Positions 993-17,300 of a DNA stretch of 17,685 bases are shown in pieces (position 1 is the stretch's first letter; each line of letters opens with the position of its first letter). The position numbers were made by a program, and so were the translations under genes. This stretch comes from Candidatus Zhuqueibacterota bacterium (GTDB lineage: Bacteria; BS750m-G25): the NCBI GenBank assembly GCA_016783505.1, contig JADHWK010000046.1, forward strand, positions 1-17,685. The letters are read 5' to 3'. Below the pieces are notes generated by a model. It saw only the letters and a program-made list of their open reading frames with translations. It searched no databases and was not told the origin of the DNA.

Positions 993-2702
993 ATGCGTCT
1001 TTCTGAAGGATTTATTCCAACATTAAAAGAAATTCCCAGGGAGGCTGAGCTTCCCTCCCACCGCCTTATGCTCCGTGCCGGACTAATTAGGATGCTGGCC
1101 GCTGGCATCTACAGTTATCTACCCCTTGGTTGGCGGGTGGCCAAGCGCGTGATTACTATTATCAGGGAAGAGATGGACCGGATCGGTGGTCAGGAAACAT
1201 TCCTGCCCGCCATTAATCCCCTTGAAGTCTGGCAGGAGACGGGTAGGGCGGCCGATTTCGGGGATATGATGTTTCAATTCAAGGACAGGCGTGGCCGGGG
1301 GATGTGTCTGGCCCCCACCCATGAGGAGGTCATCTGCGACCTGGCCCGCATTCACATCCGTTCCTACCGGGACCTGCCCCAGATCTGGTATCAGATTCAG
1401 ACCAAATTCCGGGACGAACCCCGGCCCCGGTCGGGTGTCTTGCGAGCCAGGCAGTTTATTATGAAAGATTCATACTCATTGGACGCCGTCGAGGAGGGGT
1501 TGGATAGGAGTTACCAGCTTCATCGGGAAGCCTACCAGCGAATCTTCACCCGGTGCGGTCTGGACTTTATTATCGTTGGGGCATCCAGTGGACTCATGGG
1601 GGGGTCGGGTTCCCAGGAATTTATGCTGATTTCGGACAGCGGAGAGGACACGGTGGTTACCTGCCCCTCGTGCCATTACGCCGCTAACCTGGAGGTGGCT
1701 ACGTCGGTCAAAGAACAGATGGCCGAGGATGCCTTCTCCGGGGATACTCAACTGCGGGAAGTCCATACCCCCGGGAAAAGAACCGTCGAAGAAGTCTCTG
1801 GATTTTTACATATTCCCAAATCTAAGCTGATCAAATCCCTGCTGTTTATAGCCGAACAGGGTCCGGTAATGGCCCTCATTTCGGGGGATGATGACTTAAA
1901 TGAGGCTAAATTGATGACGGCTGTGGGGGCCTTCCGACCCGCCCATCAGGAAGAGGTGCGACAGATCTGCAAGGCGGAAGCCGGGTTTATCGGTCCCATA
2001 GAGCTGGAAGGAGTAACCATCCTGGGGGATCTTACCCTGACCAGGACCAAAGGAATGGCCACCGGTGCCAATCGGGACGACTATCACATCGTCGGCATTG
2101 ACGTGGCCCGGGACGTGCAGGTGGAAAAATTTGTAGACTTAAGAATCGTTGGCGATGGGGAGGGATGTCCACAATGCGCCCGGCCGCTTAAGGTTATCAA
2201 CGCCATTGAAATCGGCCACATCTTTAGATTGGGAACCAAATATTCCCAGAGTATGGGAGCTACTTTTCTCGATGAGAAAGGAAGAGAAAACCCCATTATT
2301 ATGGGGAGCTATGGGATCGGCATTGGCCGCATCATCGCCGCCGCTATCGAACAAAACCACGATAAAAACGGCATCATCTGGCCCCTGAATATAGCCCCTT
2401 ACCAAATACATATTCTCTCCCTAAACGCTGATCACCATAAATGTCAAACGGTGAGCGAAGATCTCTATCAAATCCTTACCCGGGAGGGTTGGGAATGTCT
2501 CTTCGATGACCGAAGACTAAGAGCCGGGGTAAAATTTAAGGATGCTGATCTTTTGGGAATGCCCATCCAGATTGTCGTGGGCGAAAAAAACCTGGCGGAA
2601 GATAAGGTGGAAATAATATTACGAAAGGACGGTTCTCGGAAAATTATCGCCATTGACGGAGTGGGGAAAGAGGTTAAAAAAATATTGACTCAAAAGAAAT
2701 AA
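993..2702 (+). CDS. proS: Proline--tRNA ligase (bacterial type, with editing domain)
   Basis: Charges tRNA-Pro with proline in the cytoplasm. The 569-residue length fits the bacterial ProS type. The N-terminal class II catalytic core shows the expected start (ASHRLMLRAGLIR-like block), the THEEV segment, and motif 2 with FRDEPRPRSGVLRARQF. A YbaK-like insertion (roughly residues 250-395, containing KSKLIKSLLFIA and ALISGDDDLNEAKL) is the editing domain that clears mischarged Ala-tRNA-Pro. Motif 3 appears as GSYGIGIGRIIAAAIEQ near 440, and the C-terminal anticodon-binding domain begins at WPLNIAPYQIHIL. The gene follows the nucleotidyltransferase by 10 bases and may be co-transcribed with it. 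No strong ribosome binding site is seen at ATG 993. The 3' end contains a promoter for the next gene. Confidence 0.97.
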   Translation: MRLSEGFIPTLKEIPREAELPSHRLMLRAGLIRMLAAGIYSYLPLGWRVAKRVITIIREEMDRIGGQETFLPAINPLEVWQETGRAADFGDMMFQFKDRRGRGMCLAPTHEEVICDLARIHIRSYRDLPQIWYQIQTKFRDEPRPRSGVLRARQFIMKDSYSLDAVEEGLDRSYQLHREAYQRIFTRCGLDFIIVGASSGLMGGSGSQEFMLISDSGEDTVVTCPSCHYAANLEVATSVKEQMAEDAFSGDTQLREVHTPGKRTVEEVSGFLHIPKSKLIKSLLFIAEQGPVMALISGDDDLNEAKLMTAVGAFRPAHQEEVRQICKAEAGFIGPIELEGVTILGDLTLTRTKGMATGANRDDYHIVGIDVARDVQVEKFVDLRIVGDGEGCPQCARPLKVINAIEIGHIFRLGTKYSQSMGATFLDEKGRENPIIMGSYGIGIGRIIAAAIEQNHDKNGIIWPLNIAPYQIHILSLNADHHKCQTVSEDLYQILTREGWECLFDDRRLRAGVKFKDADLLGMPIQIVVGEKNLAEDKVEIILRKDGSRKIIAIDGVGKEVKKILTQKK

Positions 2703-2713
2703 ATTAGTATATT
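2685..2713 (+). promoter_or_regulatory. Sigma70-like promoter TTGACT-17-TATATT
   Basis: TTGACT at 2685-2690 and TATATT at 2708-2713 are separated by exactly 17 bases. The -35 box lies inside the last codons of proS. It points to the ORF starting at 2776, which has an AAGGA Shine-Dalgarno-like stretch about 9 bases upstream. The boxes match those of several other candidate promoters in the window. Confidence 0.6.
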
Positions 2714-2775
2714 AAATCATATCATTCGATGTACCTCCAAATTGGAAGAATATCCGAACTATAAGGACTGACTTG

Positions 2776-3288
2776 ATGGGTAAAAGATATAAAAATCCCC
2801 CGATTGCTGAGGCTATATGCGAGTTTCAGTTTGAGCTGAATTCTCCCTGGGATCTTGTTATGCCTGGTCTTGTATATGAGCAAGTGAAGCGAACTTTCCC
2901 TAAAAGGCACCAAGTTAAGGTGCTTGATGTAGGAGTTTCGGCTGACCCGGAGGAAGTGGAAAAACAAGTTCGAACTACTCTTGAGCGATTATATACCTTC
3001 AGAGAGCGAGAAGAGGTCCTATGGTTTCTTGAGAGATATCCGTTTCTTGTCTCGTTATTACTGGATGCATATAAAGAGATTGGAAATTACTTCCCTTATT
3101 CACAGGTCTTTCTTGAGGTAATCACCGATCCGGAAGCAACTGAGGACTCTCAATTGGTAATATTCATTGCTACAAATCTTGCCCCGGATAAGGCTGATGA
3201 CAGGCTTGAGCGGTTCGATGAGGACTGGTGGCTGGACGCCTTAGACCGGGCGCAAGGAAAGCTTTGTATAGACATGGAGTTCCGATGA
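2776..3288 (+). CDS. Probable chimeric ORF: TIGR04255-like N-terminus joined to a second small family
   Basis: A 170-residue protein with no signal peptide or membrane segment. The first roughly 60 residues (KRYKNPPIAEAICEFQFEL, then WDLVMPGLVYEQVK) resemble the start of TIGR04255-family proteins, which are normally much longer. From about residue 65 (VRTTLERLYTFREREEV) the sequence changes character and resembles a different small acidic family, with FLERYPFLVSLLL, LFLEVITDPEA-like and FDEDWWLDALDRAQGKLCI blocks. I read this as an in-frame fusion after deletion or recombination, with the junction near 2965-2972. Both assignments are from memory of the families. Function is unknown; both parts tend to occur sporadically, in defence- or toxin-antitoxin-like settings. 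ATG 2776 is chosen over the overlapping TTG 2773. Confidence 0.7.
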   Translation: MGKRYKNPPIAEAICEFQFELNSPWDLVMPGLVYEQVKRTFPKRHQVKVLDVGVSADPEEVEKQVRTTLERLYTFREREEVLWFLERYPFLVSLLLDAYKEIGNYFPYSQVFLEVITDPEATEDSQLVIFIATNLAPDKADDRLERFDEDWWLDALDRAQGKLCIDMEFR

Positions 3289-3324
3289 GTTTTAATGCAA
3301 TTTTATAAAATATGGAGAATCATC

Positions 3325-3708
3325 ATGCCGGAAAAGAAGAAGGAAACTGGAAAAAAGACCGGGGAAAAAGTGGAAAAGGCGGCAGTGAAAGAGGAATACA
3401 CTAAAGAGGAGATCGAGGAAGGAAAAATACCCGCTCTGTTGGGATACATCTTTTTCCTCTGCGTCGTGCCCCTGTTTGGTTTTAAAGACAACCGATTTGC
3501 CCAGAAACACGGCAAGCAAGGGTTGGCCCTGTTCATTGTCGAGGTCATCGCCCTTCTATTCCTGGTGCCCACCGTCAGTAAAATCTTCTGGTGGATCATA
3601 CTGTTGGCAGCCATCGTGGTAGCCGTTATCGGGATGGTTCATTCCCTTCAGGGAAAATGGTGGCGGATTCCCCTATTGGGAGACTTTCTGGACAAATACG
3701 GACTTTAA
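3325..3708 (+). CDS. DUF4870/Tic20-like small membrane protein
   Basis: A 127-residue protein that begins with a highly charged Lys/Glu segment (residues 1-35, about half Lys or Glu) followed by three hydrophobic stretches: around IPALLGYIFFLCVVPLFGF, ALFIVEVIALLFLVP and IFWWIILLAAIVVAVIGMV. The pattern YIFFLCVVPL, then NRFAQKHGKQGLALF, and a C-terminal WWRIPLLGDF is typical of DUF4870-type inner-membrane proteins of unknown role. ATG 3325 is preferred over ATG 3295 because GGAG at 3314-3317 sits 7 bases upstream and the longer form adds an unrelated leader. The gene is followed by a strong terminator, so it ends a transcription unit. Confidence 0.8.
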   Translation: MPEKKKETGKKTGEKVEKAAVKEEYTKEEIEEGKIPALLGYIFFLCVVPLFGFKDNRFAQKHGKQGLALFIVEVIALLFLVPTVSKIFWWIILLAAIVVAVIGMVHSLQGKWWRIPLLGDFLDKYGL

Positions 3709-3744
3709 CGGGTTTATCCTGAAGGCCCTTTCTGTCTGTTGTGC

Positions 3745-3775
3745 AAAAACCACCTATCCTGCGGGTGGTTTTTTT
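3745..3775 (+). terminator. Rho-independent terminator after the DUF4870-like gene
   Basis: AAAAACCACC (3745-3754) pairs with GGTGGTTTTT (3764-3773) around a 9-base loop, and T residues continue to 3775. The A-rich 5' arm also makes it potentially bidirectional. It separates the membrane-protein gene from the radical SAM gene. Confidence 0.85.
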
Positions 3776-3802
3776 GTGAACACGGTTAGTAATGCTATAT
3801 TT

Positions 3803-4741
3803 ATGTCTACCGATTCTGTAACCTTCCCTTCATATCTTGACCTCCATCAATCAGGGCAACTAAACACCCGGATTGACCGGCTTTTTGAGATATTAGAAAG
3901 TTGCACCCTTTGTCCCCATCAGTGCCGGGTAAACAGGTTGGCCGGGGAAAGGGGGACCTACTGCCGAGCGGGGGTCAAGGCTAAAATTTCCAGCTTCTTC
4001 CCCCATTTCGGTGAAGAGGAGCCCCTAGTAGGAGTGCACGGCTCCGGCACCATCTTTTTTGCTCACTGCAACCTGCATTGTGTCTTCTGCCAGAACTACG
4101 ACATCAGCCATCTAGAGGAAGGAAGGGAAGTTGAGGAGGCCGATCTTGCCAGAATGATGATATATCTCCAGAATCAGGGCTGCCATAATATCAATTTTGT
4201 CACCCCAACCCATTTCGTCCCCCAATGGGTGGCGGCTCTCCCCAAAGCTGTCGAGTTGGGGCTGACCTTACCCATTGTTTATAACTGCGGTGGTTATGAA
4301 TCACTTGAAGTCATAAAATTGTTAGACGGTATAATTGATATTTACATGCCGGACACTAAATTTTCTTCCAATAATGTGGCTAAAAAATACACCCAGGCCA
4401 AAAACTATGCGGATATCCTCTGGGGGGTTCTTAAGGAGATGCACCGTCAGGTTGGAAACTTAAGGCTTGATGGTCAAGGGATTACCACCCGGGGGCTCTT
4501 GATCCGTCATCTGGTAATGCCCAATGACCTGTCCGGGACTGACAAAACCGTGCATTTTATTGCTGAACAGCTTTCACGGGATAGCTACGTGAATATCATG
4601 ACTCAGTACCGTCCCTGTCACCAGGCCCAGGTTTATCATGAGATCGCCCGGCGAATTACACCCGAGGAATATCGAAAGGCGGTGCGGATAGCCAGGGATG
4701 CCGGTCTTTGGCAGGGATTCGGAGTTAATTTAGTCATTTAG
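3803..4741 (+). CDS. Radical SAM protein, PflX-type (COG1313-like, PFL-activase homologue)
   Basis: A 312-residue protein with the radical SAM signature CX3CX2C as CNLHCVFCQN (Cys 89, 93, 96 from this start), which ligates the 4Fe-4S cluster that cleaves S-adenosylmethionine. An upstream Cys-rich block, CTLCPHQCRVNR with a later GTYC (Cys 34, 37, 41, 54), is typical of this family and may bind a second cluster. Further family blocks are NINFVTPTHF, YNCGGYES, DIYMPDTKF and GLLIRHLVMPN. Members are annotated as homologues of pyruvate formate-lyase activating enzyme; the glycyl-radical or other substrate is generally unknown and no partner is visible here. ATG 3803 is chosen because the in-frame GTG at 3776 abuts the T-tract of the terminator and could not be preceded by a leader from a promoter beyond it. 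Confidence 0.9.
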   Translation: MSTDSVTFPSYLDLHQSGQLNTRIDRLFEILESCTLCPHQCRVNRLAGERGTYCRAGVKAKISSFFPHFGEEEPLVGVHGSGTIFFAHCNLHCVFCQNYDISHLEEGREVEEADLARMMIYLQNQGCHNINFVTPTHFVPQWVAALPKAVELGLTLPIVYNCGGYESLEVIKLLDGIIDIYMPDTKFSSNNVAKKYTQAKNYADILWGVLKEMHRQVGNLRLDGQGITTRGLLIRHLVMPNDLSGTDKTVHFIAEQLSRDSYVNIMTQYRPCHQAQVYHEIARRITPEEYRKAVRIARDAGLWQGFGVNLVI

Positions 4742-4942
4742 TTATTAGGTTATTAAGTCATTAAAAAATAATAAATTTGTGCCTTTTTGATGAAGATATT
4801 GTCATTGAAAGGATAGGAATATCACAATTAGATAGAGCAGGAGTTTAACAATCGGTCAAGTCAGGCTCCCGACTGATGTAAATTTGCAATTCTAGCCCAC
4901 GGTTCTACGATCCAATAACCCAATAACTTAATTACATAATAA
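4742..4942. repeat. Imperfect 21-bp inverted repeat flanking an intergenic segment
   Basis: The arm at 4742-4762 (starting TTATTAGGTTATTAAG) is the reverse complement of 4922-4942 (starting AATAACTTAATTAC) at 18 of 21 positions. The arms bracket most of the gap between the radical SAM gene and plsY, with no ORF inside. The arms are AT-rich, so chance similarity is possible. The segment also contains one copy of an 18-bp motif shared with the gap after gpsA. Confidence 0.4.
4860..4877 (+). repeat. 18-bp dispersed motif, copy 1
   Basis: GTCAGGCTCCCGACTGAT here and GTCAGGCGCCCGACTGAT at 6731-6748 differ at one base. Both copies are intergenic, in the same orientation, and bracket the plsY-gpsA pair. 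The ends (GTCAG/CTGAT) can form a short stem with one G-T pair. Function unknown. Confidence 0.5.
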
Positions 4943-4964
4943 CTTAATTTTCTAGAAAAAGGGG

Positions 4965-4993
4965 TTGCTTTTTTATAAAAAAATTACGATATT
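4965..4993 (+). promoter_or_regulatory. Candidate promoter for plsY-gpsA (TTGCTT-17-GATATT)
   Basis: TTGCTT (4965-4970) and GATATT (4988-4993) are 17 bases apart. A start of transcription 6-7 bases downstream would fall at or next to the plsY ATG at 5000, giving an mRNA with almost no leader. This fits the absence of any Shine-Dalgarno sequence before plsY. Confidence 0.4.
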
Positions 4994-4999
4994 TAACAT

Positions 5000-5629
5000 A
5001 TGAATATTCTATTCATCATCATTATTAGCTATCTTTTGGGATCGTTTCCCACCAGCATTATTGTGGGGAGAATTCTCAAGGGCATAGACATTCGAAACTA
5101 CGGCAGCGAAAACGCCGGGGCCACCAACACCTTTCGGGTGCTGGGGTGGAAGGCGGGTATGCTGGTACTGTTAGTTGACATGGCAAAGGGGCTTCTGGCC
5201 GTCACCCTCATTACAAAATATTTCGGTGATCCTAAAGAAATGGGTCGCTTTGCCGATCTTTCCCCCATTATTGCTGGATCGGCGGTCATCCTGGGGCATA
5301 TCTATACAGCCTTCGCCCGTTTTAAGGGGGGAAAGGGAGTGGGCACTGCCACCGGGGTCATCATAGGCATCGCCCCACTGACCTCGCTGGTATGCATTTT
5401 GATATGGTTAATGATTGTCCTTACCACCAGATTTGTTTCCGTTGCTTCTCTGGCAGCAGCCTGCTGCTTTCCCCTGATTACCCTTCTGCGAAAAGATTTC
5501 GACCTACCACTTTTGATCTTTAGCGTCCTTTTACCCTTGGTTATCGTTTATACCCATCGAGAGAACATCCGTCGCCTCTTTAAAGGTGAGGAAAATAGAT
5601 TAAGGAAGGGGTGGCTCTCATTTAAGTGA
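5000..5629 (+). CDS. plsY: Glycerol-3-phosphate acyltransferase PlsY
   Basis: An integral membrane enzyme that transfers an acyl group from acyl-phosphate to glycerol 3-phosphate, giving lysophosphatidic acid, the first step of bacterial phospholipid synthesis. The 209 residues are within the usual PlsY range. The three family motifs are present: GSFPTS with GSENAGATNTFRVLG near the N-terminus, the glycine-rich FKGGKGVGTATGV block in the middle, and the C-terminal YTHRENIRRLFKGEENR. Hydrophobic segments alternate with these loops, as expected for a polytopic protein. The start at ATG 5000 matches the family N-terminus although no ribosome binding site is seen. It lies directly upstream of gpsA, whose product makes the glycerol 3-phosphate it consumes. 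Confidence 0.96.
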   Translation: MNILFIIIISYLLGSFPTSIIVGRILKGIDIRNYGSENAGATNTFRVLGWKAGMLVLLVDMAKGLLAVTLITKYFGDPKEMGRFADLSPIIAGSAVILGHIYTAFARFKGGKGVGTATGVIIGIAPLTSLVCILIWLMIVLTTRFVSVASLAAACCFPLITLLRKDFDLPLLIFSVLLPLVIVYTHRENIRRLFKGEENRLRKGWLSFK

Positions 5630-5634
5630 TCCCT

Positions 5635-6639
5635 ATGAAAAAGGATGTTGGTGTTTTAGGGGCCGGGAGTTGGGGAACCACCCTGGCCATTTTATTACAC
5701 GGTAACGGGCATCGGGTTTCATTGTGGGAATTTCGTGCCCGGGCCGCCAGGGAGTTAGCCCTCTTTCGGGAGAACCGTGAATTCCTGCCAGGGGTCGCCA
5801 TTCCCCCTGACATTATCATTTCATCGGATTTTTATCAGGTGGCGTCTGAAAAAGCCATCCTGGTCACTGCCGTTCCCTCCCATGTGCTGAGATCAGTGGG
5901 CGAAAAACTGCACTCTATTGATCTGAACCGTACATTGGTGGTTAACGTATCCAAGGGTATTGAGAATCAAAGCTTGAAGCGTATGTCTGAGGTCCTATCA
6001 GATACGGTTAAGGGGTTTGATCTAAAGAGGTTCGTTGCATTGTCGGGCCCAAGCCACGCCGAAGAGGTCAGTCAACGCATGCCGACCACGGTGGTGGTCG
6101 CCTCAACTTCCATAAAAGCGGCGGAGGAGGTACAACAGGTGTTCATGACCCCCTATTTCCGGGTCTATGCTTCTGATGATCTGGTTGGGGTGGAACTGGG
6201 GGGATCCCTCAAAAACGTCATCGCCATCGCCGCCGGCATCTGCGATGGGTTGGGTTTCGGTGACAACACCAAAGGGGCGTTGTTAACCCGGGGCATGGTG
6301 GAGATCGCCCGCCTGGGAACCGCCATGGGAGCGCGGCCGTCCACCTTTTCGGGCCTGTCCGGCATGGGTGATCTCATTACCACCTGCACCTCCCGCCACT
6401 CCCGCAACCGCTATGTGGGGGAGCAGATCGGAAAGGGAAGAAAATTAAGCGACATCCTGGCGGGGATGGTCATGGTGGCCGAAGGGGTGAGGACAACCCA
6501 ATCGGCCTATGACCTGGCCCAAAAACACGGGGTTGACATACCCATTACTACCGAAGTTTACAACATATTGTTCAAGGATAAAGACCCGGCAACTGCCCTT
6601 CAGGATTTGATGACCCGCCGGGCCAAAGTGGAGGATTAA
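5635..6639 (+). CDS. gpsA: Glycerol-3-phosphate dehydrogenase [NAD(P)+]
   Basis: Reduces dihydroxyacetone phosphate to sn-glycerol 3-phosphate in the cytoplasm, supplying the substrate of PlsY. The protein (334 residues, normal length) opens with the Rossmann dinucleotide loop VGVLGAGSWGTTLA. It shows the family blocks VNVSKGIE, ALSGPSHAEEV, the catalytic-lysine region LGGSLKNVIAIAAGI, GDNTKGALLTRGMVEI and FSGLSGMGDLITTCTS followed by SRHSRNR. ATG 5635, 5 bases after the plsY stop, fits the family start; a GTG at 5626 overlapping the plsY stop is an alternative nine bases upstream. The tight spacing indicates an operon with plsY. A 373-base gene-free segment follows. Confidence 0.97.
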   Translation: MKKDVGVLGAGSWGTTLAILLHGNGHRVSLWEFRARAARELALFRENREFLPGVAIPPDIIISSDFYQVASEKAILVTAVPSHVLRSVGEKLHSIDLNRTLVVNVSKGIENQSLKRMSEVLSDTVKGFDLKRFVALSGPSHAEEVSQRMPTTVVVASTSIKAAEEVQQVFMTPYFRVYASDDLVGVELGGSLKNVIAIAAGICDGLGFGDNTKGALLTRGMVEIARLGTAMGARPSTFSGLSGMGDLITTCTSRHSRNRYVGEQIGKGRKLSDILAGMVMVAEGVRTTQSAYDLAQKHGVDIPITTEVYNILFKDKDPATALQDLMTRRAKVED

Positions 6640-12698: not shown

Positions 12699-12746
12699 GC
12701 CCCTGTAGCTCAGTTAGGATAGAGCAGCGGTTTCCTAAACAGCAAG
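12699..12746 (+). pseudogene. Broken tRNA-Arg (CCT) 5' fragment
   Basis: Bases 12699-12743 match the 5' two-thirds of a tRNA: acceptor strand GCCCCTG, D arm GCTC/GAGC, and an anticodon arm GCGGT-TTCCTAA-ACAGC with anticodon CCT at 12734-12736 and one G-A mismatch. The match then stops. No 3' acceptor strand (CAGGGGC) follows. Instead there is an AT-rich stretch and a weak T-arm-like AGGGTCAATTCTCCC at 12762-12776. TTTTAGCTAT occurs immediately before the fragment (12689-12698) and again just after it (12747-12756). It is most likely a tRNA pseudogene or an integration scar, lying in the 504-base gap before the kinase gene. Confidence 0.75.
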
Positions 12747-12799
12747 TTTTAGCTATAAAAACAGGGTCAATTCTCCCAAAATTCTCCCATTTTTATGAA

Positions 12800-13006: not shown

Positions 13007-15907
13007 ATGATTGGCAAAACTATATCTCATTACAAAATCCTCGAAAAAATCGGTGAAGGCGGCATGGGTGTGGTGTATAAAGCTGAGGATACGAAACTAA
13101 AGCGTACTGTTGCCCTGAAGTTCCTGCCGCAAGAGTTTACCAGAGATGAAGAGGCAAAAGAACGCTTCGTCCATGAGGCACAGGCAGCATCAGCCCTCGA
13201 CCATCCTAACATCTGCACCATCTATGAAATCAATGAAACTGAAGATGGACAGACATTTATCGCTATGGCATATTACGAGGGTGAAACACTTAAGGAAAAA
13301 ATTTCAAAAGAATCATTACCAATTGATGAGGCACTGGATATTGCATCTCAAGTTGCTCAAGGTCTATCAAAAGCACATGAGAAGGGTATTGTACATAGAG
13401 ATATAAAGCCTGGTAATATAATTGTGACAAATGATGGTGTGGCAAAGATTGTCGATTTTGGGTTAGCAAAGATGGCTGGTGCTTCAAGAATCACAAGAGC
13501 AGGTTCAACATTAGGTACAGCTGCTTACATGTCTCCGGAACAGGCACGAGGTGAAGAAGTAGATTACAGAACTGATATTTGGGCTTTGGGTGTAGTTCTG
13601 TATGAAATGCTTACAGGACAACTTCCCTTTCCGGGCGAATATGAATCTGCAGTCATCTATTCAATCCTGAATGTAGATCCGAAATCTCCAAGGGATTTTC
13701 GTGAAGACATCCCGGCGGAATTGGAGCAGGTCGTGATTAAAATGATGAAAAAAGAAATATCTCAACGCTATGTTTCGGTTACTGAATTCAAGACCGATTT
13801 AGGAAAGATTAAATCCACATTGATGGGAGCAGGTATAGGAGTGCTGGGTAAGACCAGGCGATACTTCAAGCCAGCCATCCTTATACCAGTGACCCTCATC
13901 GCCCTCATTGCATTAGTGTTTCTCATAAGACAGATTCATCGCACTACCCGAATCCGTTGGGCTAAAGATGTGGCCCTCCCAAAGATCGAAGAATTAATAG
14001 ATAAGGCGAATTCTGAAAATAACATTGAAGCTTTTAACCTGGCACAGAAAGCAGAAAAATACATTCCCGACGATCCGAAACTGAAACAACTCATGCAGTT
14101 GATCCCTGCAACCATTTCTATCAAAACACAGCCTGCAGGTGCTAAGATTTATCGGAAACCTTTCGATAAACCGGAGAGCGATTGGGAATTCATCGGACAT
14201 ACACCTATCGTCAGCAGGCGCATGCCTTACTACCTATTCCTTTGGAAAGTCGAGAAACCGGGATATGAAACCCTGTACCGGCTCTCCTTTTCAGGAGGAC
14301 CAATTGATTGGAATACCGTAACATATTTACCTTATACAATAGATTGTATTTTGGATAAAAGTGGAACCCTGCCTCCGAATATGGTTCGAATACCAGGGAC
14401 AGGCGAAATTGCCGATTTCTTTATCGACAAATACGAGGTGACCAACGAGCAGTTTAAATGGTTCGTCGAAAACGGCGGTTATCAAAAAAAAGCATATTGG
14501 AAACATCCATTCATAAAAAATGGAAGAGAAGCGACCTGGGAAGAGGCAGTGGCAAAATTACGTGATACCACCGGCAGGTTGGGTCCTGCCACCTGGGAAG
14601 GGGGAAGTTACCCGGAAGGTGAGGATAACTACCCGGTATCCGGGGTGAGCTGGTATGAAGCGGCTGCTTATGCAGAGTTTGCCGAGAAAAGCCTTCCCAC
14701 TATCGGACACTGGGGGTCAGCGAGTAGGGTAAATATTACATACGCCTATCATTTGTTTTATCCCATGTGCAATTTTGATGGGGAGGGTCCGGTTCCCGTG
14801 GGAACCACAGAGGCCATAACCCAGTTTGGCGTGTATGACATGGCAGGAAACGTGAGGGAGTGGTGTTGGAATGAATCGGAGAAAGGACGATGCATCCGTG
14901 GCGGTGCCTGGAATGATGTTACTTACATGTTTGGCAACGTCACCCAGGCAGACCCTTTTGATCGTTCTCCTAAAAATGGTTTTCGCTGCGTTATCTATCC
15001 TGATAGGGAAAAATTACCCGAGAGTCTATTCGAAACTCGATTATACGAAAAGCCGAGGGACTTCTACAAAGAAACTCCGGTCTCCGATGCCATTTTTAAC
15101 GTTTATAAGGACATGTTTTCATACGATAAAACTGATCTCAAGGCGGTTGTGGAGGAAAGCGACGACCGTTCGGCCCACTGGATTCATCAAAAAATTTCCT
15201 TTTCAGCGGCCTATGACAATGAACGAATGATCATACATCTCTTCCTGCCCAGAAATAGTAGTCCTCCTTTTCAAACAATCATCTGTTTCCCGGGTGCAGG
15301 GTCTATAATTGTACCTTCCAGTGATGATATAGAAAATTATTGGGAGTTTACCAACAAACTCTCCTTTTTTGTAAAAAATGGGCGGGCTGTGGTATACCCC
15401 GTTTACAAGGGGACATTCGAACGCGATGGTTCATTAATACCCCGGTTTGATGCATTACACGAGTATAAGGACTATATGATAAAAGTAGTAAAAGACTTTA
15501 AAAGGGTCATCGATTATCTGGAAACCCGGCCGGATATCAATACAGAGAAAATTGCCTATTTCGGTATGAACTGGGGCGGTAGATTGGGTGGTTTAATTCC
15601 TGCCCTTGAAGAACGAATTAAAGTTGCTATCCTTGATGTTGGAGGATTTTCGTTTAGGAAACCAAAACCAGAAGTGGACCCTTTTAATTATGTTTCGAGA
15701 ATAACCATTCCCACTTTAATGCTTAATGGTAGGTTTGACATGACCTTCCACTATGAGACATCGGCAAAACCGATGTTTGAACTGCTGGGGACTCCGATTA
15801 AGGATAAAAATCAGATCGTTTACGATAACGATCACTACATCCCCCGAAAAGAGCTTATCAAGGAAAGCCTGAATTGGCTGGATCTTTATTTTGGCATGGT
15901 AAAATGA
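13007..15907 (+). CDS. Ser/Thr protein kinase - TM - PEGA - SUMF1-like - alpha/beta hydrolase-like fusion
   Basis: A 966-residue multidomain membrane protein. Residues 1-265 are a Hanks-type kinase with all key residues: glycine loop GEGGMG (16-21), Lys38 in VALKFL, Glu57, HRDIKPGN (Asp132, Asn137), DFG 150-152 and MSPEQ. One membrane segment lies at about 290-309. Next comes a PEGA domain (about 369-450, SIKTQPAGAKIYRK), then a SUMF1/FGE-like domain (about 458-665, FFIDKYEVTNEQF and YDMAGNVREWCW). That domain lacks the Cys pair of true formylglycine-generating enzymes and has a degenerate LPTIGHWGSASR block. Residues about 690-966 resemble dienelactone/acetyl-xylan-type hydrolases, but the nucleophile elbow reads FGMNWGG with Asn855 in place of Ser; Asp (NGRFD) and His (NDHYIPR) positions persist. 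The kinase would be cytoplasmic and the rest extracytoplasmic. Signal sensing is the inferred role. The module copy upstream supplies its promoter. Confidence 0.9.
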   Translation: MIGKTISHYKILEKIGEGGMGVVYKAEDTKLKRTVALKFLPQEFTRDEEAKERFVHEAQAASALDHPNICTIYEINETEDGQTFIAMAYYEGETLKEKISKESLPIDEALDIASQVAQGLSKAHEKGIVHRDIKPGNIIVTNDGVAKIVDFGLAKMAGASRITRAGSTLGTAAYMSPEQARGEEVDYRTDIWALGVVLYEMLTGQLPFPGEYESAVIYSILNVDPKSPRDFREDIPAELEQVVIKMMKKEISQRYVSVTEFKTDLGKIKSTLMGAGIGVLGKTRRYFKPAILIPVTLIALIALVFLIRQIHRTTRIRWAKDVALPKIEELIDKANSENNIEAFNLAQKAEKYIPDDPKLKQLMQLIPATISIKTQPAGAKIYRKPFDKPESDWEFIGHTPIVSRRMPYYLFLWKVEKPGYETLYRLSFSGGPIDWNTVTYLPYTIDCILDKSGTLPPNMVRIPGTGEIADFFIDKYEVTNEQFKWFVENGGYQKKAYWKHPFIKNGREATWEEAVAKLRDTTGRLGPATWEGGSYPEGEDNYPVSGVSWYEAAAYAEFAEKSLPTIGHWGSASRVNITYAYHLFYPMCNFDGEGPVPVGTTEAITQFGVYDMAGNVREWCWNESEKGRCIRGGAWNDVTYMFGNVTQADPFDRSPKNGFRCVIYPDREKLPESLFETRLYEKPRDFYKETPVSDAIFNVYKDMFSYDKTDLKAVVEESDDRSAHWIHQKISFSAAYDNERMIIHLFLPRNSSPPFQTIICFPGAGSIIVPSSDDIENYWEFTNKLSFFVKNGRAVVYPVYKGTFERDGSLIPRFDALHEYKDYMIKVVKDFKRVIDYLETRPDINTEKIAYFGMNWGGRLGGLIPALEERIKVAILDVGGFSFRKPKPEVDPFNYVSRITIPTLMLNGRFDMTFHYETSAKPMFELLGTPIKDKNQIVYDNDHYIPRKELIKESLNWLDLYFGMVK

Positions 15908-15972
15908 AATTAAGAACAACTCATCCTATTTTATACGGATCTAAAAGGGTAGTAAATTACCCATTGACACTA

Positions 15973-16149
15973 TAACGAATAAGCGTTGCATCCGACCGGA
16001 GCTCTTTTTAAGCGGAGGTCGGAGTGCAACACGGCATGCATACGGACCGAAACGCGTTTCATGACCTCCACGTTTGAGATGCTTGTGGAATCACTTCAAT
16101 CGGGGAAATAACTCTTGGCGTTTCGGCCGGTGATGCCGAAGGCCGTTAG
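15973..16149. other. Structured GC-richer intergenic segment with bulged stems (recombination-site-like or structured RNA)
   Basis: Stem 1: GTTGCATCCGACC (15985-15997) pairs fully with 16017-16030 except for one extra G at 16024. Stem 2: 16044-16055 (GGACCGAAACGC) pairs with 16118-16128 except for one extra A at 16046. Inside stem 2 are GAAACGCGTTTC (16049-16060, self-complementary) and TCCAC/GTGGA (16067-16071 with 16085-16089). A third hairpin TTCGGC/GCCGAA lies at 16122-16140. TAACG at 15973-15977 and CGTTA at 16144-16148 are complementary and close the whole segment. Bulged single bases and TAAC/GTTAG ends recall integron attC sites, but the size and layout are not typical and no integrase is present. 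Confidence 0.4.
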
Positions 16150-16204
16150 AAATCTGAGTTTTATTAAAAAAATGGCAACTGATGGTTTTGCTTTCATTAT
16201 AATT

Positions 16205-16245
16205 AAACAAGGCCTATTCATTCATCTTGAGTAGGCCTTGTTTTG
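16205..16245 (+). terminator. Terminator hairpin of repeated module, copy 3
   Basis: AAACAAGGCCTATTCA (16205-16220) pairs with TGAGTAGGCCTTGTTT (16228-16243) around the loop TTCATCT, with one G-T pair. Compared with copies 1 and 2 the stem carries a paired C-G change in both arms, so the fold has been kept. A nine-G run follows at 16247-16255. Confidence 0.78.
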
Positions 16246-16337: not shown

Positions 16338-17300
16338 ATGAAATATAGACAACTTGGCGATCGGGGACCAAAAGTTTCTACCATTGGTTTTGGAACCTGG
16401 GCAATTGGTGGAAGAGATTGGGGGAGAACTAATGATAAAGTTTCAAAGAGGGCTTTACACGAAGCATTAGACAAAGGGGTAACATTAATTGATACAGCTG
16501 ATGTGTATGGTTTTGGCCATTCTGAAAAACTTATTGCTGATGTTCTTAAGGAAAGAGGAAAAGGAGAAGTTATTGTTGCTACTAAAGCGGGTAATGATTT
16601 TTATGATGCTACGGAAGAAGATGACAAGGGATATGGGCCTATCAGACAAAATTATGACAAGGATTATTTGATTTGGGCTGCTGAACAGAGTATAAAACGA
16701 CTTAATGTCGATGTTTTAGATATACTTCAGTTACATAGTCCAGATTTAGAAAAACTTGAAAGAGATGAACCTTGGGAAGCAATGGAAATATTGAAAAAAC
16801 AGGGTAAGATTAGATATGCGGGGTTTAGTATTCAATCTTTCAAAGAAACAGAACAGGCGTTTTTACTTGATGAACATCATGGTTTATTAGATTGTATTCA
16901 AGTACGATATAATATACTTGAGCGAGAAGCAGAAAAAGAACTATTCCCTAAAGCACAAAAATATGGATTAGGGGTTATTGTAAGAATTCCCCTTTTGTTT
17001 GGTTTATTAACTGGAAAATTTACAAAAGAGACTAGATTTGGAGACGACGATCATCGCAGAATGAACCTTTCCCCTGAAAGATTAGAGAAATATGTTGATG
17101 AAATGGAGAAACTAGATACTCTTTTTAAAGAATATTCCACATATACAAAAGCCCAAATTAGTTTAGCTTTCTGTATTTCACACTCAGCTTGTTATACAGC
17201 GATTCCTGGGGCAAAAACCCCTCAACAGGTTTTTGAGAATTGTGTATCATCTGATTTAGCACCGATCCCTATTGACAAAATTCCTTCACTTTCTTATTAG
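16338..17300 (+). CDS. Aldo/keto reductase
   Basis: A 320-residue NAD(P)H-dependent oxidoreductase with a TIM-barrel fold. The start KYRQLGDRGPKVSTIGFGTW is typical. The catalytic tetrad is visible as Asp52 (IDTAD), Tyr57 (VYGFG), Lys83 (ATKAG) and His133 (LQLHSPD), and the barrel blocks GKIRYAGFS, QVRYNILE and TAIPGAKTPQQV follow. The C-terminal IPGAKTPQQVFEN region would bind the cofactor phosphate or adenine side. The substrate cannot be told. The gene is distinctly AT-rich in third positions compared with the housekeeping genes here, possibly a sign of transfer. It has its own promoter in the repeated module and is followed by a second, partial reductase gene with different composition. 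Confidence 0.92.
   Translation: MKYRQLGDRGPKVSTIGFGTWAIGGRDWGRTNDKVSKRALHEALDKGVTLIDTADVYGFGHSEKLIADVLKERGKGEVIVATKAGNDFYDATEEDDKGYGPIRQNYDKDYLIWAAEQSIKRLNVDVLDILQLHSPDLEKLERDEPWEAMEILKKQGKIRYAGFSIQSFKETEQAFLLDEHHGLLDCIQVRYNILEREAEKELFPKAQKYGLGVIVRIPLLFGLLTGKFTKETRFGDDDHRRMNLSPERLEKYVDEMEKLDTLFKEYSTYTKAQISLAFCISHSACYTAIPGAKTPQQVFENCVSSDLAPIPIDKIPSLSY

Follow-up and report, generated by a model that had tools for sequence, protein, structure and literature searches.

The window (the whole stretch of 17,685 nucleotides analysed here) carries on its forward strand a gene at 13007–15907 whose 966-codon frame is open and clean throughout. The 966-aa product is a fusion composed of a Ser/Thr kinase, a transmembrane helix, a PEGA-like domain, a SUMF1-like domain and an alpha/beta-hydrolase, in that order. 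The sequence-only reading had proposed a kinase-PEGA-SUMF1-hydrolase fusion at this position, and both the domain order and the presence of one helix after the kinase were confirmed. The first domain (~aa 8–266; 13028–13804) is of the Hanks type and is identified by a Pfam Pkinase match at aa 9–255 (185.9 bits). All of the catalytic motifs are found, as had been claimed: the G-loop (GEGGMGVV), Lys38 in VALK, which corresponds to the VAIK lysine, HEAQ, the HRDxKxxN motif (HRDIKPGN), DFG and the (A/S)PE motif (SPE). Judged by these residues, the kinase looks active. The single transmembrane helix follows at aa 286–311 (13862–13939; Kyte-Doolittle maximum of 2.85), and the kinase is N-terminal to the helix in all 74 homologues in which both a kinase motif and a predicted helix precede the outer module. 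Since a kinase needs ATP, this domain is presumed to be cytoplasmic, and the PEGA-like, SUMF1-like and esterase domains would be located outside the cell.

The PEGA-like beta domain (~aa 361–455; 14087–14371) is tentatively assigned through matches to Pfam PF08308 in homologues and appears as a confident beta domain in the AlphaFold model. The segment of the window copy stays below the PF08308 threshold on its own sequence; 32 of 43 family members match the profile at E-values up to 0.1 (best 4.8e-7). The next domain is SUMF1/FGE-like, of the C-type-lectin type (~aa 460–664; 14384–14998), with an FGE-sulfatase (PF03781) match at aa 465–662 that scores 90.8 bits against a gathering threshold of 23.3. 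It does not reach the NCBIfam cut-off of either EgtB or SenA, and structure comparison of the predicted model matches it to EgtB, OvsA and CalU17 (Z of ~21.5–22). The only Cys residues in this domain of the window protein are at positions 588, 620, 629 and 661, with none between RGGAW (631) and GFRC (658), a span that we take to be the location of the FGE active-site Cys pair. Mutation of this pair, Cys336/Cys341, strongly affects FGE (PMC4505483). None of the 79 family members has two Cys in the span and only two members have one, so a loss particular to the window protein was rejected. Because the pair is absent across the family, the domain is not a broken FGE; it is a different branch of the EgtB/FGE fold. 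The sequence-only reading was correct that the pair is missing, and its description of the domain as altered does not hold.

The C-terminal domain (aa 681–966; 15047–15904) has an alpha/beta-hydrolase fold resembling those of the CE7 and PETase-like esterases. Structure prediction had been recommended for this region, and an AlphaFold run on aa 355–966 with 43 sequences gave a model with a mean pLDDT of 92 and a pTM of 0.88, with pLDDT mostly above 90 in the hydrolase, which together with structure comparison confirmed the fold. The hydrolase model superposes on CE7 acetyl xylan esterases with a Z of 26 and 2.7–3.6 Å over ~265 residues, and matches PET46 with a Z of 22.1; identity to these CE7/PET46-like structures is only 17–22%. 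In sequence, the closest matches of the family profile are MHETase/PETase-like esterases, and the nucleophile elbow of the window copy, FGMNWGG, aligns with the GxSxG of these enzymes. The CE7 family is defined by RGQ, GxSxG and HE motifs (PMC9606172). The window copy has GMNWG at the elbow, a Tyr after His943 and no RGQ anywhere, and due to the absence of the RGQ and HE motifs the domain is not filed as CE7.

Several features were noted around the gene. Directly after it, at 15972–16151, lies a long imperfect hairpin with TAACG...CGTTA ends, whose DNA fold has a z-score of -5.1 with no shuffled sequence equally stable. In outline it is like an integron attC site, and parts of it recur at 73–80% identity on two other contigs of the same genome (G000:C72:39686-39822 and G000:C69:7656-7714). 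Integrase-like matches in the window genome are below the integron-integrase cut-off, and similar matches occur in all control genomes. Further downstream, a 16-nt inverted repeat (16205–16243; 94% complementary, arms 7 nt apart) is located between the kinase gene and an aldo/keto-reductase-like ORF at 16338–17300. Upstream, the segment at 12700–12790 begins like a tRNA (CCCCTGTAGCTCAGTTAGGATAGAGCAGCGG) and is possibly a broken tRNA; neither ARAGORN nor Rfam calls it, and both find only a tRNA-Arg at 253–326.

The hydrolase domain was traced through named genomes to establish a family. A first contig scan with a single-sequence query returned no matches, and a scan with a four-sequence alignment gave 79 loci labelled Acidobacteria, Aminicenantes, Gemmatimonadetes, Bacteroidetes, Calditrichaeota, KSB1, Latescibacterota and others, with labels that come mostly from metagenome bins and may individually be wrong. 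Within the phylum of one further genome (G060) the domain was found in 63 of 298 genomes, with most of the strong matches in frames of 750–1200 codons. The phylum of G119 yielded no family member, that of G068 yielded G068 itself as its sole match, and a wider draw of 386 genomes gave no further fusion. The window's own phylum is represented in the comparison by the window genome alone. The nearest homologues are L112 (68% identity, labelled Calditrichaeota) and L113 (66%, labelled Verrucomicrobia, on a short contig).

The AAC codon at 15569–15571 encodes Asn855 at the position of the nucleophilic Ser, which leaves the Ser-Asp-His triad of the window copy incomplete while the acid Asp911 (15737–15739) and the base His943 (15833–15835) are kept; both of the latter have a family conservation that rounds to 1.00. 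These assignments had been made from the letters alone, including the expectation of Ser at the elbow, and are borne out by the family alignment. The suggested check, whether Ser is usual at this site, found Ser in every one of the 138 homologues that are readable there, which come from many phyla, and Asn in the window copy only; this number counts sequences and not independent lineages, as protein-identical records were merged and near-identical ones kept. The first piece of L181 and the second hit of L146 could not be read at column 855, where both are gapped, and were left out of the count. Ser is likewise present in five loci that were added later, some of which may duplicate earlier records. 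The Ser codons of the 138 homologues are AGC (96) and AGT (42), never TCN, and the AAC of the window copy differs from the more frequent of the two, AGC, by a single G-to-A transition. The idea that Asn855 is common to other family members was rejected for this sample.

The outer module of the family, with its PEGA-like, SUMF1-like and esterase domains, is found behind a range of inner domains. It follows a TIR domain, as a SUMF1-hydrolase module, in two loci from bins labelled Bacteroidales (L141:3288-5861 and L150:254-2827), a nucleotide cyclase (Guanylate_cyc) in L160, a cyclase and a kinase in L134, a winged-helix domain (Trans_reg_C) and a kinase in L139, a BTAD domain in L066, and TPRs with a kinase in L075. 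Two loci (L082, L135) have the module with an anchor only and no recognized signalling domain, and tandem neighbours of the same kind are present at L127, L136, L147 and L154. As the outer module is kept while the inner outputs vary, the layout suggests a sensor. The window genome also has a second signalling cluster (L008, G000:C75; frames 1–654, 1325–3364, 3386–4324 and 4382–5644) with a frame that by eye is SpoIIE/PP2C-type phosphatase-like, a kinase-SUMF1 protein, a hydrolase and a kinase cut by the contig end. This hydrolase is a separate ORF next to the kinase-SUMF1 gene, with an N-terminal hydrophobic segment that makes it look secreted and an intact GISRG elbow. The cluster is apparently a split version of the window fusion, and fused and split forms therefore coexist in one genome. 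No description of an architecture combining a kinase and a SUMF1/FGE domain with PEGA or a hydrolase was found in open-access papers, and the kinase-PEGA-SUMF1-hydrolase family is apparently both widespread and undescribed. The larger result is the family. Its outer module is conserved, has an esterase triad that is invariant, and is positioned behind kinases, TIR domains, nucleotide cyclases and transcription-factor-type domains in many phyla; this layout points to sensing via an esterase in bacterial signalling proteins.

On balance, we regard the window protein as a single-pass membrane receptor-like Ser/Thr kinase with an outer esterase site that is without its nucleophile. From the architecture, the outer module of the family would most likely be a sensor based on an esterase site of the working type, which would recognize and probably cleave an ester-bearing ligand. 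Binding, or formation of the acyl-enzyme, may then alter the state of the inner domain, usually a kinase and sometimes a TIR domain, nucleotide cyclase or BTAD regulator. The sequence-only reading had proposed a receptor with outer pseudo-enzyme domains. The receptor-like layout and the departure at the nucleophile of the window copy stand; as a family trait the pseudo-enzyme is wrong, since Ser-Asp-His is kept in all other readable members. In the window copy, Ser would have been replaced by Asn through one transition with everything else kept, so the usual acyl-enzyme hydrolysis should be gone and the protein should bind at most. Binding without conversion is possible for this copy alone, a proposal that depends on one base. 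The fuller scheme, in which the family senses via a working extracytoplasmic esterase and the Ser-to-Asn change has made this member a non-hydrolysing, possibly permanently ligand-holding receptor, is offered tentatively. Counting against the preferred explanation as a whole, the change is of a single base only, and both of the nearest homologues, at 66–68% identity, have Ser.

There are three rival explanations. The true codon may be AGC, with AAC introduced by an error in consensus calling or assembly, or taken from a minor strain; the genome is fragmentary and probably metagenome-assembled. The single transition that separates the two codons would fit such an error, as would the agreement of every other conserved position with the Ser-bearing members and the state of the genome, which is in 89 contigs and 60% complete. 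Consensus errors are rare per base, however, and one that hits the second base of exactly codon 855 is unlikely a priori, in a frame that is otherwise clean over 966 codons; we judge this explanation unlikely, though it deserves serious weight. Early decay, in which selection on the outer hydrolase has ceased in the window lineage and the Ser-to-Asn change is the first loss to become visible, finds some support in the rates. From the shared ancestor, the hydrolase branch is 0.33 in the window copy, 0.23 in L112 and 0.46 in L113, and the SUMF1 branch is 0.17, 0.39 and 0.39 respectively. By branch lengths alone, then, the hydrolase is mildly faster relative to SUMF1 in the window copy than in either homologue, a pattern that beginning decay would explain as well. 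General decay is not seen in two other comparisons: the hydrolase branch of the window copy falls between those of L112 and L113, and identity between the window copy and L112 is higher in the outer domains (68% in the hydrolase, 67% in SUMF1) than in the kinase (57%). Conservation counted over 128 good homologues argues against decay. In the hydrolase, conservation reaches 95% or more in 28 columns and 90% or more in 42, and S855N is the sole violation by the window copy in both sets, so there is no widespread decay of the domain. At the 80% level the window copy breaks 5 of 70 hydrolase columns, which is the family median. With the ORF intact and the confidence of the modelled domain high, as given above, decay is improbable.

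The site could also still be catalytic, if Asn855 deamidated to Asp and acted as a dehalogenase-type nucleophile or if another residue attacked. Asp911 and His943 are available for this, an Asp nucleophile is known from other alpha/beta-hydrolases, and a haloalkane dehalogenase mutant with Asn at the nucleophile site reportedly deamidates. No family member has Asp at this position, however, and Asn followed by Trp, as at Asn855, is a context of slow deamidation, so we consider a surviving activity very improbable. A non-hydrolysing receptor, if that is what the window copy is, would be the bacterial counterpart of ABHD5 or GID1, and its Ser-bearing relatives would serve as natural controls. 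As a natural nucleophile mutant, the window copy could then be compared with these relatives to separate a signal driven by hydrolysis from one driven by binding.

Among known systems, the CE7 enzymes (TM0077, 5fdf; Bacillus pumilus AXE, 3fvr) and the PET46-like enzymes (8b4u) are like the window hydrolase in fold, and their Ser-Asp-His placement is the same as in the family. The window protein differs from them in its Asn at the nucleophile position and in its fusion to SUMF1-like, PEGA and kinase domains. CE7 enzymes are acetyl xylan esterases or cephalosporin C deacetylases; the window copy is without the CE7 motifs. EgtB, OvsA, CalU17 and FGE have their fold and PF03781 in common with the window protein, but the FGE-type Cys pair is absent in the family. 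Cyanobacterial kinase-CLec fusions comprise DGR variable proteins and their paralogues, have been read as signal transduction proteins, and occur with other N-terminal domains besides the kinase (PMC7517822). They share with the window protein a Ser/Thr kinase and a C-type-lectin-type domain; this domain is C-terminal in the kinase-CLec fusions, whereas in the window protein it is internal and followed by the esterase domain. ABHD5 (CGI-58) is an alpha/beta-hydrolase that acts as a regulator and has Asn153 at the nucleophilic Ser site with the Asp and His kept (PMC9694394). Unlike the window protein, ABHD5 is a eukaryotic lipid-droplet co-activator with no kinase fusion, and its Asn is established in the human and mouse proteins whereas that of the window copy is a single exception. 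The plant receptors GID1 and DAD2/D14 use the hydrolase fold for ligand perception, with DAD2 being catalytically competent and GID1 not (PMC3531792). In contrast to the window protein, both are soluble, and GID1 has lost the His of the triad rather than the Ser.
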